Assembly: GCA_961205875.1 (NCBI GenBank)
Contig: OY540819.1
Coordinates: forward strand, 4,776,501-4,840,500
Length of the DNA: 64,000 bases
Reading direction: 5' to 3'
From: Sialis fuliginosa
Taxonomy: Eukaryota > Arthropoda > Insecta > Megaloptera > Sialidae
The notes below the pieces were generated by a model. It ran no database searches. It was not told the DNA's origin and saw only the letters and a list, made by a program, of their open reading frames with translations. The position numbers were made by a program, and so were the translations under genes. Shown here piece by piece: positions 23,195 to 64,000 of this stretch. Each line of letters opens with the position of its first letter. The stretch's first letter is position 1.

Positions 23195-23330
23195 ATCGAT
23201 TTGGTCATACTATCGACGAACGTTTCGTCACACATTGCAATGGATATCTTCAGGGTTCTTCTAACGAAACGTTGGCCGACAACATGACCAAATTAACGCG
23301 GCTTATACACAGAAGCCAAGATTGACATTG
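23195..23330 (-). repeat. Inverted repeat with paired GAAACGTT motifs, possible Penelope-like remnant
   Basis: TTTGGTCATACTATCGACGA at the left is matched in inverted orientation by sequence at 23262-23293; both arms carry an ACGTTTCG core. Between them, the minus strand reads CTGAAGA (23253-23247) and later GAAAC (23226-23222). The order recalls the hammerhead-like motifs elsewhere, but the intervening stem is poor. Then comes GGCTTATACACAGAAGCC, a small palindrome. Confidence 0.4.
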
Positions 23331-41114: not shown

Positions 41115-41882
41115 CTGAAATGAATCAGAAGTGTGTAAATTAGAATTTATATTTAATTAGTATATTCATATATAGCAGTTTTAAACGTCTAGTCCGCGGT
41201 AATATTTTCAGTGATCTTTTTAAGATATAAAAATTGTAAAAGGGTGAACAAAAATTAAAGACAATAAGAAATTTCTTGTGATGAAAGCTATTATTAACAA
41301 ATATAATTTAAGTAAGGTAGTGAAATATTTCATACTACACTTATACTAAAACTTATTTGTGTGAATGGAAATTTTCAGTATTTTTATAAATCAAAATAGC
41401 ATGGCTTGGCCATAAAATGCACACCCCTCAGACTTTTGAAACTATCGTTTTTTGAAGCATGTTTCAAAAAATGTTAATTTTCTTATTTGCTCTCATTTCT
41501 TGTAAATTTGTAAAAAATGATGTTAATCACTTTCAAGTAATATGTTTTCTTAAAACAATTTGTCATAAAATAATAAATAAATACAGAACCTGAAAAACAT
41601 GTTCCACAAATAATAAATAACACATTTTAATTTATCAAATATACGTTAATCCTACAATTATAACTATTCGGAATTAACATTAAATTTCAACAAACACAAT
41701 TCAAAATACCAACAATGAAACATTTGAAATTCATAACACAGATATCCAGATGATTATTACCTTCGTATATTTTCATAGAAAAACGTATCAAACAATAATT
41801 GACAATAACATAATTTAATAAATACAAAATTTAAATGTGCATTTTTGAGCTATAATGCTATAATGACAGATGTAAATTGTAA

Positions 41883-42575
41883 AGCCGCGATTACACTATG
41901 TAGCAAAACCTGCTACATAACAAATGTTATATAACTTTTGCTATAAGTACGAAAACGGAAAAATGTCAAATGTTACATGTAGCAGTTTTTGGTGCTACAT
42001 ATAACAAAATCTGCTACATATAGCAAGATTTATGTTTTCCATCCAGAGTAGGTAAAGATCAAAGAAAAATAAGCTACATGTAACTTTTGCTATATGTAGC
42101 AAGTACTACAAGTAGTTTTGGTTCTCTAGCATCTGCTTCATGTAGCAGTTTCTATCATTCGAGTTCAAGCGGTGATATTTATATGTCTTATGTGTCTATG
42201 TCTACAACGGTTTTTTCATTTTTAATAAAGCTTTCATAATGGAAAAGTCATGCAAAGTCATCTGCATTTAAGTCTTTCAGCAAATCACTTCAACTGTATT
42301 TTTCTCTAGCTAATAATAACGGCCGAACCCAAAACCTACGTTTCCTTCTATGACATGCCAAAAATATCGTAATAGCTGCCGCTAGCATTAAGTCTTTCCT
42401 CCTCGACATCTTCAATCAGACTGAATGTTATATAACTTTTGCTACATGTAACACAGTATCATTTGAGTACAATTTGAAAAATATAGCAAATGTTTTATAA
42501 CATTTGCTATATGTAGCACTGCTACATATAGCAAATGTTATATAGCAGATTTTACTAAATAGTGTAAATGCGGCT
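41883..42575. mobile_element. PIF/Harbinger-type element loaded with ATGTAGCA motifs
   Basis: Ends AGCCGCGATTACACTATGTA and its near complement at 42550-42575 lie between TAA triplets (41880-41882, 42576-42578), the PIF/Harbinger target type. Inside, about ten copies of ATGTAGCA or its complement TGCTACAT occur near both ends in both orientations, several forming GCTACATGTAGC-like palindromes. No coding in 693 bp. Confidence 0.78.
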
Positions 42576-43113
42576 TAAGTAGATGTATAAAACATGTCAG
42601 TTCACGCAATGGTCGCGCCTAACGGATATTTTTCAAACTTTCCTGAACAACTATGTATATATTTGCCAAAAATTTTGACGTTAAAAAACACAAAAATATT
42701 CAAATAAACTCCTTACTTCTAGTTATCCGATTTGGCTGAGTTTTAATAGGGTTCTATTCTGCAAATAGATGAAGCGAATTTAAAAGGTTTGATGTTAATT
42801 TATAACGTATTGCGAGCTGCAGTTTGTTGCCGTGGTGTAAAAATAGGTCTAAAACGACAAATTGAACTTTGTTTATATTTTTTATGACAGAAAATTAAAA
42901 CCAATCGGTATTAAATTAAGTGAATATGGAGACTGTAATGTTCTCATTTAGAAAATGTAAACATGTAAGGAGGTTACTGAAGAAATTTAATATATAATGC
43001 TCATTTTATCAAATTTCATACGAAAAAAATAATGGGATGAGAGTATTACCACACTGCAAAGCATGCTTATATATGAGGCAAACTTTAGTATTATTAAGCC
43101 GAACCTGTTAGAG

Positions 43114-43319
43114 CAGCAGTTCTTAAACTTATATGGTCTAGGGACCCCCTATTGAACAATTATTTTTCATGGAATCCCTTTCTCCGGACAGAAAAACAAA
43201 GAAGGTCGTTAGATACTAATTATTTATACAATGGTAAATAGAAATGTAAAAGTACTTTAATTTATGCCATGGACCCTCATTAAAAGTTCATGTAGTGGAC
43301 TCTAGTTTAAGAACCACTG
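43114..43319. mobile_element. hAT-type miniature element, copy 2
   Basis: A 206-bp element from CAGCAGTTCTTAAACTT to AAGAACCACTG. Flanking octamers TGTTAGAG and TGCTAGAG match at seven of eight positions, as expected for an aged hAT duplication. It aligns with 19537-19741. Confidence 0.8.
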
Positions 43320-44059
43320 TGCTAGAGAATGTTTCAATGAACAAAATTATTTTTAAATGTAACTACAACTATTAAAAAGATTATATGGGTTTCTTTCTTC
43401 GAACCCGAACCTAAAAAAGTTATGTTCTTTTTATGCATTTTTGTAACTAAACTAGAAACCGAACAGATCATTATACATATATTGAACTCGAACCAAAAAT
43501 ACATTGATATCAAATGTCGAGTTTTAATGAATCCAATTTAATATACATATTATTATAAACATTTCATTATATACCTATTCGAAATAATTAGAATATAATT
43601 AAATTACAAGTACCGTAAAAATTATAATACTAATTTTAATAAATTAATATCAAGATTTAATCATTAAGAAAATTAATATGACAAAGATGCGTCAATCACG
43701 AAGTTTTTACATAGTAGCTTCGAAATCAAAGTGAAATTTTCATACCAAAGGTAGATTTAAGAGACAAGTTAAAGTCTCGCGATTTAATTAATGGTACAAT
43801 TAATCTGTACACCCGCTGAAGTGTGATTTATTTTGATAAAACGTTTAAAATTCTTATGTCTGCCTCCTTGTCATTCACTTGCAGTACTTTAATGGCTTTT
43901 TGAATATTGTTGTTCTTATTAATATAAGAGCCAATCATTTTTGTTGGCGTGAAACATACAAAAGATTTTTAGTATAAGCCTCTGGTTTGATACAGTATTA
44001 ACATAATCGATCAATTATTACATTGGTTCTAAAACTTTTTTTTTAAACAAAACAACATG

Positions 44060-44522
44060 ATAAGGATCTGACTTCAGTCTTGGATCATACCCCAGTATTG
44101 GATTCTTCTTTAATTAAGTGTGCTGAATTAAATGGCTTAATTTGATGATAAACGGCCAATGGAAGTCAAAATGGTGGACATTTAAACTAACTATTAGTGT
44201 AATCTATTTATTCATTATTATATTATCTTAGTATCTGCTTTACATTGTTTACAATTTTACGATTCTTTATTTTATATCTTTTTTGTCGTAGTATTTACCA
44301 TTTTGTAATAATTAGCAAGTGTCCAGCACTAGATACTCATTGCTGGTTTTACTTTATCCATTACTGGAGAAGAAAATAAATAAAATAAAAGACTATAATG
44401 TAAAATCAAACCATATTTGTAGACTTTGGTAATTACAAATTGATTAAATAAAGAGGTATTTGTTTTATTAGTAACATGAATTAATGAGAATTACAAAAAA
44501 TAAGACTTGTGCCAGTACCATA
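44060..44522 (+). mobile_element. 0.45-kb repeat family, copy C
   Basis: Its left end ATAAGGATCTGACTTCAGTC and right end GACTTGTGCCAGTACCATAT are imperfect inverted copies. It aligns in the same orientation with copy D 465 bp further on, and inverted with copy A. Shared phrases: TTGGATCATACCCCAGTATT, TGGTTTTACTTTATCCA. Confidence 0.75.
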
Positions 44523-44986
44523 TATTTTTTTTGAATATCTTTTCAATAAATAAAATATATATTTGTATACTTTTCTTCATGTAAAAATTTCATTGTTTTT
44601 TTTTTTTTTTGTGAAACATACATAAATAAGTTTGATATATTAGGTACATACATATGCATGAATAGATAATATTAATGTAGGCATTCTATATATCCAATAG
44701 CTGTCATTGAATATAGCGCTTGTTTTTTCCATCTCACCTTATCTGTAAAATGACAAGATGCGAATGTCAACTTGTTGAAATATCTCGACGTATTCATCTT
44801 TTACTGGAAGAAAACAAAGTTGTGGAGCGTGTCAAGGTGAAGTGTGGCGTTCTACCATACCTCATAACTTCCTCGTATAACTGCTTCACACTTTTTTTAT
44901 TCAACAACTTCATACGTACATGTGTTTAAAAAAATTATATTTGTATATTTATGTAGTGTTCTTACATAGTTCTTGGGAATTTGCAA

Positions 44987-45470
44987 ATAAGGTACTGGCG
45001 ACAGTCTTGAATCATACCCCAGTGTTGGATTCTTGTTTATTAAATGTATTAATCATAATCTATAGACACTTAACCATAAAATAGCTTAATTTGATGACAA
45101 TCCGTCAATGGGTGTCAAAATTGTGAACATTTAAACTAATTGTAAACGTAATTTATTTATTAGTTTTTATATTATCATAGTATTTGCTTTCCATTTTTTT
45201 AAAATTTTACTATTCTTTATTTTATAACTTTTGTAACGTAATACTTATCATTTTGTCAAATGTCCATCACTAGATACCCATTACTGGTTTTACTTTATCC
45301 AAAATAAAAAGCTATAATAAAAAAAACTATATTTGCAGACTTAATTAAATTGATTTAATAAAGAGGTACATTTTTTAAGTAACACGAAAATTACAAAAAA
45401 TAATCCTATAAATCCTAAAAACAGTATAGCTTGCTCTTTAAGAGTCCAAGACTGATGCCAGTGCCTTATT
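44987..45470 (+). mobile_element. 0.45-kb repeat family, copy D
   Basis: Ends AATAAGGTACTGGCGACAGT and GATGCCAGTGCCTTATT are inverted copies. This is the best-preserved copy with both ends. It is a direct neighbour of copy C, in the same orientation. No coding. Confidence 0.78.
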
Positions 45471-45979
45471 TAAATTGCTATCAATATTACACAAGATTGT
45501 ACCTATTTTTTTTTTAAATTAAATGCTTCATCCGAATGTATTATTGGTTTGAAATTTTGTTCTTGACATTATTTAAAGTTTTTACAATTATAACTACTGA
45601 AAAAACAACTTGCCTCGGATTGTGGAATAATTTCTATTGGTGTTTATAGCCCAACCCGAGCGACTAACTTAGAATATTAATTAATATTATATTATTAATA
45701 TTAATGATTTATTAATTAAGTTGAAGCTTGAATCAACTCTTATGTATTAATTACACGGAATTAATTATAATATTTAAATGAAATTTTCTGCGAATGTAAT
45801 TATAATTGGGTAATTATATATACAACAACACATTAACATATTTACGCCAATCTTACAAATTACAAAATAAAATAACGTTCTATTTAAACAAACATCACCC
45901 ACGTACCTTTCTATATTTACATATTTATGTTAAAACCCATCAAATATGTATAAGATAAAAAAGATTTGTCAGTCTCTTC

Positions 45980-46640
45980 TCAGGTGAGACATTAGCAACA
46001 AACCGTAAACACGTGCACGAAACAGATTAAAGCCAACCTGAGATGGAAACAACAGAGTCGCATTTTAAAACGTACGAGATCTGTCGAATGATATACAAGT
46101 TCTATATCAATTGTGATAGTTGACTCGAGATAGAAGAAGAAGAAGAAGGGGTCGGTAGGCGTCCTGATGGATTGCCTCAAGCAGTGTTATTGGATTGTGC
46201 AAACGACAAGGGACCAAAAGCGTCTGAAAATCGAGTTTGCAATACGTAAAATCGGTACGATTTATATCTACCGAAATCGAGAAATAATAACATTAGTGTA
46301 CACCCTGTTATATATTAACAATAAACTGAGAGGTGGAAAGAAAACAAACTTGAAAATGGAAGTGCAAAGGGTGAGAGAATTGTTCGTGAGCTGAATTCGC
46401 CGCGAGGTTTTTTGGGTCTCGGAGGACTGCCAACGTGCACGGCTTTACTGATTCGCCCGTCGATACGATGGGTTTGTATTCGTTTTACCTCCAGTAGTAC
46501 TACTTTGGACTGTACACGCCGTTATTGAATTTGTCATTGTCTGCGCGCATCTGGTGTACAACGCCAGTCGACCGATTGGCTTCTTTCACACGGACAATGT
46601 TCTTTATAACATTCAATTTGTACTCTCTTGGATACAATGA
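45980..46640. promoter_or_regulatory. GC-richer, apparently unique intronic block
   Basis: Base composition is well above the intron average and I see no second copy in the window. Short frames on both strands have no family match. A conserved intronic enhancer is possible but untested; no promoter consensus is evident. Confidence 0.2.
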
Positions 46641-46735
46641 AGAACTGGCGATAAGGGTCTTAATATTTAGAAATATGCGAAATACCATACATTTATAATC
46701 AAATACAAATCCCCTAACCATAAAAATTGTAAAAG

Positions 46736-46786
46736 TTTAGACTTACACGTGTTTCAATAGCAATGCTATCATCATCAGAGTCCTAA
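46736..46786 (-). ncRNA. Candidate hammerhead-ribozyme-like motif, best of three
   Basis: On the minus strand: stem I GGACT (46783-46779), core CTGATGA (46778-46772), one base, stem II ATAGC/GCTAT with loop ATT, GAAA (46755-46752), self-complementary stem III ACACGTGT (46752-46745), A at 46744 as the cleavage base, then AGTC (46743-46740) and T46739 pairing back to GGACT, the last pair a wobble. All required core positions of a type I hammerhead are present. The one-base bulge before stem II is non-standard, but shared with the two other motifs in this window. Penelope-like elements commonly carry such motifs. Confidence 0.6.
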
Positions 46787-47939
46787 AGACACTATAAAAA
46801 TAATAATAAATAAATAAAATATTCATTAGAATATTAATTCTTAATCCTTATTTTTCATAGAGAGCCTTAGAGTAAGGTTTTCACATACGTAAGGAACTTA
46901 TTTAGCCTGTTATGACACTATACCTATGAAGAAAAGATATAGTACTAATAACACATTACCTAGCGTTGTTACCATATTGCTCAATCGCACTTAAAAAAAT
47001 CAATTGTTTTGAATTATAAAACTAATTAATAATAAATGTTTTATATTATCTTTAAAAGTATTTCAGTGATAATTGATTAACAGAGAAACGTCTATTTGGA
47101 ATTATCATCTTTTTTACATACCAAATTCAACTGTAATTTAAAGCATATTTTGTATATTATAAATTTTCAACTGACGCCTCTGGGATCATATGCATGGAAA
47201 TGACGTGTAAGTTAAAAACTATACCACATATCACTAGAGTACCCTCAAACCGCAATTTGTTTAACTGCCATAATACTGTAATATTAAACCAGTAAAAAAA
47301 TTATTTATATCAAAAAAATAAATTTCTTTTTATAAATGAATAAACAAAATTGTACCGTGTGAAACAGTTTAACTTGTAGAAATGTCTGTTCTCTTGTTGC
47401 ATTACCTTAAGAGATTCGTAGCTACAAAAAATCTTTACAGATATTTCTGGTTCATTAATGGCTCCATTGCAACCAACATTAAAAAATACGTTTTTATGAA
47501 TAATGGATGCTATAAATTAACTAAATTTATTTTATGTTCAACGCAATAAAACTAAATATAATACATAACGCTAATAAAAAATATTGAATATTATGTATTA
47601 AAATCACTCACATTCTTGCGATTAGTAAAATTAAAATAAAATAATATTGCAAAATTCTTTCGTGATCAATAAAATTCTGTGTTGTAATAAAATGCGTTGT
47701 TAACAGTAAGTAAAAACCAAAAGTTCTTATAAACGTATAAATATCCCATTATTTCCATGTTATTAATAGCAACTTTAATATTCTACGTACACGCATACTT
47801 AGAAGTGTAACAACTTGTTCAATTCTATGTTGTTTTCAGTTTGGCTTTACTTATAAGGTTAATTAAATTTATATATTAATAATAATAAGATACTAAAATA
47901 ACATCGTATTTACTATATTGTGCAAATGATTCTATAAAT

Positions 47940-48560
47940 ATGCTTATAATTTTATAACTAAAAAAAGTATTTTTGTTTCGTTCATGGTTTTTACTTCCAT
48001 GTTCTGAAAGAAATGGAAGTATTGTAATACCATCGAAAAATCGTGTCCGAGAAAATGACAAATTCTGATTGTACTAACTTCAAAATGTAAAGAAAAGTTA
48101 ATTTCCGCATGACGGCTGTGCGTGTGTTTGTGTGCCTGTGTGTCAGGATGTAGATTTTTCTTTCGTTCACGATAACTACTGTACAAATGCACTGATCTGA
48201 ATTATTTTTGGAGAAAATGTTTGTCTCAGTGAGTACTCCAGACCTATTGATTTTGGTGCTAATCGGATCAGGGGTTTTGGAAATATTCCAAATTTTGAAA
48301 ACTTTTTTCGTCTAAAAAGTGAACATAGCGAGTATTATCTCACTAATTTTGATAAGATTTGGTACATTTACAGTTAAATTGAATCTAAGGGACATTTATT
48401 ATTTGTACGTGCCTAAACAGCCATTAAAGGGGTGAAAAACACACTTAAAATTTGAATTTTAAATACTAATTAATACGTCATTAATTCATGTTGCCTTGGA
48501 AACAAATGCAACTAAATTCAGATTGTCAAATTAGTTGTTCTACGAATGTGTATTATGTTT
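47940..48560 (-). repeat. Dispersed-repeat fragment
   Basis: The stretch mentions typical repeat phrases on the minus strand (CATTTTCTCGGACACGAT). Its right part (48478-48560, ATTAATTCATGTTGCCTTGG then AAACAAAT) has a related copy at 54365-54430. Ends and class unknown. Confidence 0.4.
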
Positions 48561-49285
48561 TTCACATTATATATTTATATACAAATGGCAATAACTGCTG
48601 AAACCGTCGTAAGTATATATGTTTTTTATGTATTACGTTTATATTCATAGTAGTAGATTATATTAATAAAATATTTTTCAAAAAATTTATATTTAAAAAT
48701 TATTTAAAAAGATAGAAAGAACATGGAAGTCATGTATGGTTCTCCATACCGATATTTAATATAAAACAATCAGTAAGTTTTTTTTTTTAATTTTTGGTGC
48801 TAGACTCCTGTTCAAAAAGTTATATACATACGTAAATTAGAAGACGGTTTAACATATTCTCACCTTTATTTGATGATTTTACCATATTTCAGGTATAATT
48901 TAAGAACATCAAAATTAAAATTTTACACTGTTCGAAAGTTTTACTTATGTCCGATATTATAAAAGAGATAACTTTGTTAGCTAGCAAGCACTTTTCAAAT
49001 GGGTTATCTATGGATTAGTTATGGCATTTAGAGCAGTGATGCATCATCTTATTATAACACAGTTGGCAAATCAACCGTTGGTGTTTATTTACCACGCGTA
49101 CGTGTACAGTTTTTTGGATTTATAACTAAAAATATTATGTATATTGTATATATACCATACAAAAACCTTTTTCAAAAATAGTATAATGCTATCAAGAAAA
49201 TTCTACATATTTCCCGTAGATATGTACATGTATATTTTAGTTCGTCGTTTCTAAAAATAAATCAGAGAAAAATATATTTGCTTAC

Positions 49286-53199: not shown

Positions 53200-53958
53200 A
53201 AAATAATAATAATAATAATAATATATATCTTTATTCTTTTTGACTGTTTATAAATACAGTATAGAATGAGTCAACACAATAAAGAAAAAATAATAATAAT
53301 AATAATAACATAATAACATAATAATTATACAATACAAAAACCTATAGTGAATATGAAAAAAAGAAAAAAATGTTCATTGAAAAAATTCAAGTAGATCATA
53401 ATAATTTTTTAGATGCAGATGAGATTTTAATTTATTTTTAAATTGTTTAATGTTTAGTTCTTTTATGTTATTTGGAATGTTATTGAATATTTTAATAATT
53501 GCATTTAATAGTCCTTTCTTGATTACTGCGAGTGAATGCTGTGTTATTACTAACTTATTTTTATTTCTGTTGTTGTATTCATGTTGTAATAAATTATCTT
53601 GAAATAGGTGAGGATATTTTTTAGCAAACATTGAACATTCGAATATGTATAAATCGTATACTGTGAGTATTTTTAGTTGCTTAAATAAGGGACGACAAGA
53701 TGTAGTAGGGCTGACATTATACATAGCTCTTAAACATTTTTTTTGCAATAACAATATGTTTTTAAACACTAAATAACACGAAAATATTGAATATGTTAAA
53801 GTTGCATATAAATTGAGACTTGGCATTTTTTCTTCATTACAAGTAGGCCAACATAAAGAAATTGAAATCCCCTGGTACTTATAATCGCAACCTGAACATG
53901 TCATTGAGATGCTTCTAGATCCCTCTTTATTAAAATACCGTGAGCGCGATCGGGTCAC
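53200..53958 (-). mobile_element. LINE 3' end with C-terminal part of reverse transcriptase ORF
   Basis: A minus-strand frame (53958-53374, up to 194 codons) encodes the segment that follows the catalytic domain in Jockey/CR1-like LINE reverse transcriptases: LLLQKKCLRAMYNVSPTTSC, RPLFKQLKILTVYDLYIFEC and then IIKIFNNIPNNIKELNIKQF. Residues about 70-190 carry this match; the first 60 or so do not clearly fit. A 3' tail follows with AATAAAG and two TTA/ATA-type microsatellites (53204-53228, 53290-53325). No catalytic YxDD region is present, so the copy is 5'-truncated, as is usual for LINE insertions. Clade assignment is tentative. Confidence 0.8.
53204..53325 (-). repeat. TAA/TTA microsatellite tracts at LINE 3' end
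   Basis: Two AATAATAAT tracts separated by about 60 bases of apparent 3' untranslated sequence. The outer tract probably marks the end of the insertion. Confidence 0.7.
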
Positions 53959-56380
53959 ATATAGATGTAGAATTTAATATCTTTGAACATACAAATAATA
54001 ATTTCGTGTTTGGTTTGCGGATGCTGAGAGTGTGTGTAACAGTGTTATTAACAGCAAGATGAAAGCAGCTACTTTGATATGTATTTATAGATCTTATGAA
54101 AATGACGGTTATACGCGTATAATGTTTCATAAGAAAAATTAATTAAATCAAGGAGCTCTCGTTAACGATAATATATTATTAAAATTTATTGAAGATTTTG
54201 GTTTTCAAGTAAACAGCGAAAGAACAAGAACGATATTTAAATATGAGTGTGGCAGTGTTTATTTGATGCATACAAAAAATTCTTGTAGATTATTTGTATT
54301 TCAATTTTTTTTTTATTTAAGATTACAGCGGCAGGTTGATTGACAATAACACAATTTTCATTATCTATTAATTTATGTTGTCTTGGGAACAAATTGTCAA
54401 ATAATTTCTTCTCAAAATGTGTATTATATTATCGACATTAGGATATTAGAAAACTAATATTCATAAAACAAAAGTGAGTTTTATATCTTACAAATTCCAT
54501 TAAAAGTTTTCATATACCTACATATTAAAATATTACTATCTTTATTCTGTGGGCTAATCTAGTGCGAGAATAGTACCTGTACGAATCATACTGTCTTATC
54601 CCCGACCACCACTGCAATCTTAAATGAAACAGTCTTTAGCATGAATGTGATATTTTTATAAATAATTTTTATACTGATTCAATTTTTTTTTGCATTTTTT
54701 TTAAACAATGTAATTAATATTATGGACTAAAAGTTAATTTGGAAAAAGATTAATTTATGAATAAACTATGACCAAAATTGTAAAATATAATAAAGTAATA
54801 TATTTTAAAACTATTTTACTATATCAAGATAATATTCCAAAAACATTTTGGTACCATCATTGTTCATGTTTATTTTAACACAATAAGTAAAATTATTACA
54901 GATATATTTTTATAGGTTTATAAAACTTCACTGTAACGATATTGAAGTTAAGTCAAGCATCATAAAAAAAGTAATCTCATTACAGAATTGCTTTGTGGAT
55001 GTATATTATCGACCAATCACCAACTCAATTCTTAGAATCTTCTTCTTGTTCTCCCGCTCCTTGTATAGGACATCTTAACACAATCTTCTCTTTACAAACA
55101 ACAACCATGTTGCTGTTAACATAATTTACTTTTTAACTGTTTTATAAGATGAAACAAAACGAATTTAATTATGCTAATATAATATAAATATCACGTAAAA
55201 GAGCGTTCTATTATCCGGACTCAATGGATTTTATAATTTATAAAATATAATTTTAATCATATTTTAAAATGGTCGACGTTCTATGGAAAGTCACTAATTG
55301 TAAGTCCATTTCTAAAACCAAATCTACCCTCACTATCTCTTAACAAAAATTGAGCAAAAATATAGAAAATATAAATTTTAACAATAAATTGAATATTAAA
55401 CAAAACTAAATTGGATTTACAATAAGTTACTTTTCATTGATAATATGTATCTACATAAAAGATTTTGATCTAGTTAATATAGTTCAAAATTTTAAATATA
55501 GATATTCTTTAAACAATCTTAATATACAATAAAAACGTTAATAATAAATATTAATATAATATAAAGCATGTAAAAGTATAATACAAGAACAAAAATTACA
55601 TTGGGAAGGCAATTAACATAATCAATTTTGATAGTTATTTGAATTATGATAATTGAAATTATAAATACTAAAACTAGTTTGTATTAATAAAATAACAATT
55701 AATTTTCCAATAATAACAATGAAAAATGAAAAGGCTAATTGACAATTGGCATTTAATACTTAGGTAAACAAATATAAATGATTGTTTGTACTACACATGT
55801 ATATTTTTATAAAAAGTTTGTGATGTGTACATAATTATATTTGTATGTTCGATTTCATTTTTTGAAATCCCCACCAATAATAAAAAATATTTTTTTTAAT
55901 TTAGTAACTCTACAGCACATAAAATAAGATAAAAAATTATTATTTCGACGAAAATATATATTTATTATTCTTCATTATACAAATAAAATCACGGATATAT
56001 CAAATATACGCCTACACTTGTATTAATATTATATTCGCTATATACATACAATAATAGATATTTGTAAACATCCATCAGAACACACGACAGAAATCGATAA
56101 ATATATATATATACAACAAATGTCCCCTGACGCGTTAAATCAAAAGCATAGCTTTCAGTCAATAATCAGTATAAACGCAACCGTCATAAAATGTCATACT
56201 TACAAGGAAATATGTTCTGTATCACATAATACGAAAATTGTGAAAAAATCGTGAACGAAATACATCTGCTTGCACGCACTTTTCTCATGCGAAATAGTTT
56301 ATTCGATAGGGGAACTGTGTGTGTGTGCGTGTATGTGATCTACACCAATACAAAAATAGGTATACATACAAAATTCTTAC
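53959..56380. other. AT-rich stretch without recognisable genes
   Basis: Apart from the 54.37-kb copy of the repeat at 48.48 kb, a GT-rich tract at 56311-56340 and short AT microsatellites, I see no coding or structured element. Confidence 0.5.
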
Positions 56381-63865: not shown

Positions 63866-64000
63866 GCTAACTTTTCGGGCTGTTGTCCACGTTGTCGTAT
63901 TTTTCTTCAGAAGTGATTCTGAAGAAGACTCCGACATGAGAGTCGAAACGTCAAGTGTAAGAAAAATACGACAACGTGGACAACAGCCCGAAAAGTTAGC
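63866..64000 (+). repeat. Perfect 42-bp inverted repeat around a hammerhead-like motif
   Basis: GCTAACTTTTCGGGCTGTTG begins the left arm (63866-63907); the right arm (63959-64000) is its exact reverse complement. Between them lies a hammerhead-like core: CTGAAGA (63919-63925), one base, stem II GACTC/GAGTC (63927-63931, 63940-63944), GAAA (63945-63948), self-complementary ACGT (63948-63951) and C63952. Stem I is weak. The right arm reaches the window edge, so the element probably continues. Likely the terminal region of a Penelope-like element. Confidence 0.55.

Follow-up and report, generated by a model that had tools for sequence, protein, structure and literature searches.

The hammerhead-like motif at 46736–46786, on the minus strand of the window (the whole 64-kb stretch of DNA analysed here), raises a simple question: does it serve the gene in whose intron it lies, or does it belong to something that has inserted there? 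The intron (41115–49285, minus strand, with exon ends read from the sequence) is 8.2 kb long, in phase 0 and on the same strand as the motif. Its donor follows 49286 (exon ..VVENLRGFK) and its acceptor ends at 41115 (exon VAWVRVDTQTIL..). For the second exon, a match to Dpr-interacting protein eta was obtained (E = 1.5e-27), and the best matches of the gene are DIP proteins, known from flies, which points to an insect; the exon boundaries and this match uphold the location in an intron of the DIP (Dpr-interacting protein) gene given by the first-pass annotation. Our reading, to which we assign a probability of about 0.92, is that the motif represents the hammerhead ribozyme of a Penelope-like retrotransposon (PLE) of the endonuclease-containing type, present in the DIP intron as a short insertion consisting of pseudo-LTR (pLTR) only. 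The motif is real and ordinary in kind: PLE hammerheads are already known, usually without helix III, as described in PMC6155905.

Organization of the hammerhead motif

From 46783 down to 46739 the minus strand reads GGACT-CTGATGA-T-GATAGC-ATT-GCTATT-GAA-ACACGTGT-A-AGTCT, with the hammerhead parts in the correct order. The arms of stem I, GGACT (46779–46783) and AGTCT (46739–46743), are paired in the predicted dimer fold (see below); TTTA at 46787–46784 could extend this stem by pairing with TAAA, an extension absent from the predicted fold. The core C3–A9, CTGATGA (46772–46778), is followed by one extra base, T (46771), before stem II (46756–46770). The arms of stem II, GATAGC (46770–46765) and GCTATT (46761–46756), form six pairs when a closing G-U is counted, compared with 5 in the first-pass annotation; the predicted monomer contains the inner pairs and the predicted dimer all six. 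Next come GAAA (G12 A13 A14 A15.1; 46752–46755), legible in the sequence and in the aligned copies, and the palindromic stem III ACACGTGT (46745–46752), which has no loop and contributes eight intermolecular pairs to the dimer fold. As modelled, ACACGTGT can form a full stem only with a second copy as pairing partner. The predicted cleavage site lies between A17 (46744) and A (46743), placed by its position in the motif and identical to the site first proposed.

We searched the window with a descriptor comprising the core, a stem II of at least 4 pairs with 0 or 1 extra base, a palindromic stem III, H17 and a stem I of at least 3 pairs. It matches once in the 64 kb and never in 300 dinucleotide shuffles, which, together with the sequence itself, confirms the near-complete hammerhead reported at 46736–46786. 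A chance match is ruled out by the shuffles (0/300) and by 404 genome copies. The core CUGANGA, the GAA and H17 are those of a type I hammerhead. Two features depart from that type: stem II does not follow A9 directly, one base intervening, and stem III, a palindrome without a loop, is not closed within one molecule.

Covariance models do not recognize the motif. No hammerhead was found by Rfam 15 in the whole window at the gathering score, nor at E up to 10 in 1101 and 66 bases around the motif, where a bacterial thermometer (both spans) and a snoRNA fragment (one span) were the only matches, both at chance level. Across the whole genome, RF00163 gave a single sub-threshold match (22 bits), where no core could be read. 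The significant covariance-model score by which the first-pass annotation had proposed to check the motif is thus not provided by Rfam, in the window or around the motif, which by that criterion would speak against a hammerhead. This miss may plausibly be due to the extra base and to a stem III that lacks a loop, and a constant extra base may be one reason why standard covariance models overlook these ribozymes.

The lowest-energy dimer predicted for two 57-nt motif RNAs is, base for base, a double hammerhead, with an 8-bp stem III between the strands, stem I formed across the strands, stem II within each strand and the core open. The predicted monomer fold differs from this arrangement. In the predicted fold the palindromic stem III pairs two motifs, as in dimer-acting PLE hammerheads, with an energy (−26.3) that is ordinary: among 300 shuffles each, 48 are as low for the window form and 29 for the L042 form (a tandem element of the same family, described below). 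Fold energy, being no better than that of shuffles, was accordingly dropped as support. Compensatory changes within the family were not usable, as the copies are too alike.

The parent repeat is a Penelope-like element

The whole insertion spans 46698–46793 on the minus strand and is a 96-bp pLTR piece of a PLE family, which we call family A (reference positions 396 to 491), as delimited by BLAST and by the ends of other copies. Its 5′ end is the common start A396 and its 3′ end is the first of two common end sites (490–496); BLAST against the pLTR of L042 aligns 46698–46803 at 94.5%. Over 396–491 the window copy shows two differences from the column majorities of 83 copies, namely G at 406, a common subfamily letter (37/83), and T at 456 (2/83). 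These 83 are the copies, among 121 unique ones, that cover 404–485; part of the set came from exact-motif searches, so that conservation is biased upward in the core counts, where the core letter is present in 76 to 81 of the 83 copies depending on the position. The extra base is C or A in 3/83. No clear target duplication was seen at the single window copy.

In the 392-Mb genome, the exact 24-mer of the motif occurs at 192 places, a fuller ribozyme pattern at exactly 404 and a 26-mer just downstream of the motif at 606, each with a reversed-pattern control of 0; with a 141-base query, 40 were scored out of 1228 first-look candidates. Judged from these sequences, the window copy belongs to a high-copy repeat and is a young insertion. 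With its hundreds of near-identical copies and readable ends, this young and well-defined family would be a clean one in which to test the role of the ribozyme.

Long copies run upstream into an open reading frame. The element L042 (C9:1292500-1302000, minus strand) consists of two tandem units with a period of 2587, one of which has a frame of 815 codons from stop to stop; counted from its first ATG, this would give 783 residues. This frame encodes a reverse transcriptase (RVT_1, E = 2.7e-13), in which GTAMGNSLSP and YVDD are legible; we take these two motifs to be marks of PLE reverse transcriptases. We also count a C-terminal GIY-YIG endonuclease, since GIYKI..YIGQS..R..EH is legible, with PF01541 scores of 21.1 bits (E = 3.9e-4) for the C-terminal part and 18.6 bits (E = 0.0023) for the whole frame, both below the Pfam cut-off of 22.6 bits. 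A PDB search with the frame (E up to 0.1) gave no sequence relatives, and none of the protein were found among viral contigs. In the tandem element the ribozyme core lies 114 nt after the stop codon, and the ATG of the following unit comes 86 nt after the predicted cut. The family displays the PLE traits of tandem pLTR units, head-to-head inverted pLTRs, short target duplications and a one-sided tail. The palindromic stem III had been taken at first sight as a mark of dimer-type Penelope-like hammerheads, and the parent repeat is indeed a PLE pLTR. The reverse transcriptase motif GTAMG/GTPMG..SP occurs at 31 places in the genome, and the letters available for 10 of these fall into five sequence types (control 2); judging by these types, the genome probably holds several PLE families.

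The extra base before stem II, regarded in the first-pass annotation as the main doubt about the motif, proves to be the rule. All 404 exact copies of family A carry a single base after A9 and before stem II, and none lacks it. Other hammerhead-like repeats follow the same pattern: CTGANGA-T-G..CGAAACGTT occurs 1574 times against 12 for CTGANGA-G..CGAAACGTT (of these 12, two overlap places listed for the first set, and four more share their 45-base span), and CTGANGA-N-G..CGAAACGTC occurs 747 times against 6 without the extra base, with 2 in that control. The totals for these other repeats, 2321 with the extra base versus 18 without, count copies and not independent events, perhaps from few families; a 35-base span is identical in 93 of 100 listed places of CTGANGA-T-G..CGAAACGTT. 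Inspection by eye of the 100 listed places of each set gave 5 opposite-strand neighbours within 500 bp for the CGAAACGTT set and 14 for the CGAAACGTC set, all head-to-head, and 2 and 1 same-strand neighbours, respectively. We infer that these repeats are also PLEs. In the anole element, as described in PMC11167929, the start codon comes after the core residues C3 and G8; by analogy, this position would fit A9-U-G with the same extra U.

Copy ends and the role of the ribozyme

An 800-nt reference was cut from L042 around the stop codon, the pLTR and the next ATG, and copies in other loci were mapped onto it, leaving out L039–L044. The main sample, which was not selected for the ribozyme, was drawn from contig 1 and comprises the first 52 of the 606 matches to the 26-mer, corresponding to 42 loci and 70 copies including inverted partners. 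The 3′ ends cluster at two sites 35 nt apart, 490–496 (24/70 copies) and 526–531 (29/70). The 5′ ends fall at 394–403 in 32/70 copies, with 18 exactly at A396, within TTAGTG. Because this common 5′ end has TATATAAATA, a TATA box, about 31 nt upstream, A396 is probably the transcription start. At the predicted cleavage site, A445^A446, we found no copy ends in the 70 copies, neither 5′ ends at 444–448 nor 3′ ends at 443–447; among all 121 unique copies there is one start at 447 (L037) and one piece that stops at 444 (L019). The positions of the copy ends argue against the usual use of cut RNA as template and put the ribozyme in what is probably the transcript leader. Five of the 70 copies (L060, L079, L084, L085 and L094) begin exactly at 442, in the palindrome and four nucleotides before the predicted cut; all are in head-to-head loci, and L060 resembles an internal deletion.

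Head-to-head arrangements make up 26 of the 42 sampled loci, with no tail-to-tail arrangement. The mapped loci together contain 42 head-to-head pairs, and a shared stretch of at least 8 letters within about 25 nt of both outer ends is present in 30 of them, compared with 47 of 840 shuffled control pairings; most of these pairs therefore look like single insertions. Four pairs were set aside as unclear when their ends were classed. Of the remaining 38, 34 have one short and one tailed end, two have both short and two both tailed, where 19 mixed pairs would be expected (p = 3e-7). In the contig 1 sample alone, the ends are mixed in 21 of 23 classed pairs, out of 26. Finally, it should be noted that GTCTTTAAGAC, in the family A pLTR (reference 399–409) near the RNA 5′ end, is nearly palindromic, and that 5 of the 26 sampled head-to-head junctions overlap by 14–17 nt at this sequence, as if cDNA ends had annealed.

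These observations can be assembled into a mechanism. The motif would start about 6–15 nt from the probable start site, with the TATA box upstream, so that transcripts would have it in the 5′ leader, and those of tandem units would contain an internal one as well. Two copies of the ribozyme would pair in vivo via the palindrome ACACGUGU and a cross-strand stem I, and the resulting double hammerhead would cut at GUGUA^AGUC. For the window copy, reverse transcription most likely began at an internal site, at about reference position 493, and continued as far as the 5′ end of the RNA.

The PLE motif may instead be a structural relic or an RNA pairing element, its catalysis unused and its conservation due to promoter, leader or dimerisation needs. 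This is a tenable explanation that we do not favour. It would account for the lack of sampled 5′ ends at the cut and for the overlap between the ribozyme and the inferred leader, and the extra base beside the core points the same way. According to PMC3088659, insertions at other places in the core impair known hammerheads. In the account of the anole PLE given in PMC11167929, the ribozyme does not cut without protein and is dispensable for insertion in vitro, its mutants still being inserted. On the other hand, the core letters of family A are in the majority at every position, and PLE hammerheads are reported to cleave as dimers in PMC7761336 and PMC6466107, where their role is called unknown.

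A further proposal, which we regard as speculative and unlikely, is that the PLE hammerhead chiefly links RNA dimers and is not a cutter. Leaders would pair through stem III and a cross-strand stem I, so that a single particle would hold a pair of templates. Once the target had been cut in a staggered manner, each of its strands would prime one template, the two using different ones of the adjacent start sites. If true, this would explain the frequent head-to-head insertions with target duplication, the predominance of pairs with one short and one tailed end, the missing 5′ ends at the cut and the extra base kept beside the core in more than one family.

Minimal type I hammerheads of Penelope-like elements were reportedly described by Cervera and de la Pena in 2014 and by Lunse, Weinberg and Breaker in 2017. 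As portrayed in citing papers, they share with family A the type I order, a tiny or absent palindromic stem III, an occurrence in pLTRs and in tandem, and a proposed action as dimers; family A differs in its 8-nt palindrome, in having A as H17 and in its constant extra base after A9. According to PMC11167929, the anole element PAc (Poseidon of Anolis carolinensis) similarly has a reverse transcriptase and GIY-YIG frame, tandem pLTRs and a hammerhead near the start of the next unit, and the two 3′ sites of family A match the Penelope ‘tail’ and the two measured internal start sites of that element. Its cut lies 26 nt inside the frame, whereas that of family A would precede the ATG, and PAc requires protein for cutting, whereas cleavage in family A is predicted only.

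The Pen families of Adineta vaga, as described in PMC3846280, also have inverted pLTRs that are mostly head-to-head, target duplications of 8–10 bp and a TATA box with initiator in the pLTR. Their optional tail on one inverted pLTR measures 31 bp, compared with 35 nt in family A, and most of the sampled family A copies, in contrast, are pLTR-only. The one-sided tail on inverted pLTRs has thus already been described for rotifer PLEs in that source, and only the count is new here. By description, a putative hammerhead of Aedes aegypti resembles ours in being of repeat type with a palindromic stem III and a proposed 10-bp dimer pairing (PMC3088659). Metazoan retrozymes likewise carry a type I hammerhead in a small repeat but, in the description of PMC7229834, have tandem units of 170–400 nt and contacts between the loops of stems I and II but lack a frame, whereas family A has a PLE frame of its own.

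Possible effects on DIP and other elements in the window

The lone copy in DIP is most likely inert. Beside a T-rich stretch, the insertion creates a possible 45-nt cryptic exon at 46747–46791, which would put an in-frame stop into DIP. An effect of this kind is possible from the sequence; that the insertion acts as such an exon (46791–46747, minus strand) strikes us as quite improbable. Both splice signals are directly legible, a T-rich ..TTTTTATAG acceptor and a GTAAGT donor overlapping the ribozyme cut site, but the phase 0 reading TGT CTT TAG ends in a stop and the sequence is repeat-derived. A plain coding exon of 45 nt between splice-like signals is ruled out by the genome search, which shows a repeat.

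The first-pass annotation suggested that the motif, if active, could cut the DIP intron RNA. Least probable of all is that the insertion now works in this way, as a hammerhead that tunes DIP expression by cleaving the pre-mRNA within the intron, whether in cis or through pairing with PLE RNA. It lies in sense orientation with its motif intact and could adopt the dimer fold with family A PLE transcripts, but cutting in cis is unlikely because a single copy without a loop on stem III is unable to form the fold and the 64-kb window holds no second family A copy, and because the repeat is young, with hundreds of equal copies, the intactness of the motif is uninformative on host use, nothing having been found in favour of retention on behalf of DIP.

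Other elements are present in the window. On the plus strand at 63919–63952 there is a hammerhead-like core, CTGAAGA-A-GACTC..GAGTC-GAAACGTC, again with one extra base and flanked by perfect 42-nt inverted arms (63866–63907 and 63959–64000). By its sequence, the whole segment (63866–64000, plus strand) has the appearance of a head-to-head insertion from a second PLE-like family; Rfam detects no hammerhead there, with sub-threshold matches only. On the minus strand, 23219–23253 is a copy of a third hammerhead-like family, CTGAAGATATCCATTGCAATGTGTGACGAAACGTT, one letter off a pattern that occurs 1574 times in the genome. For these two other motifs, taken with their flanks, the predicted dimer minimum is not a double hammerhead. 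Finally, an open frame of 199 codons on the minus strand (53377–53973) may be the C-terminal end of a non-LTR retrotransposon reverse transcriptase, which it resembles.
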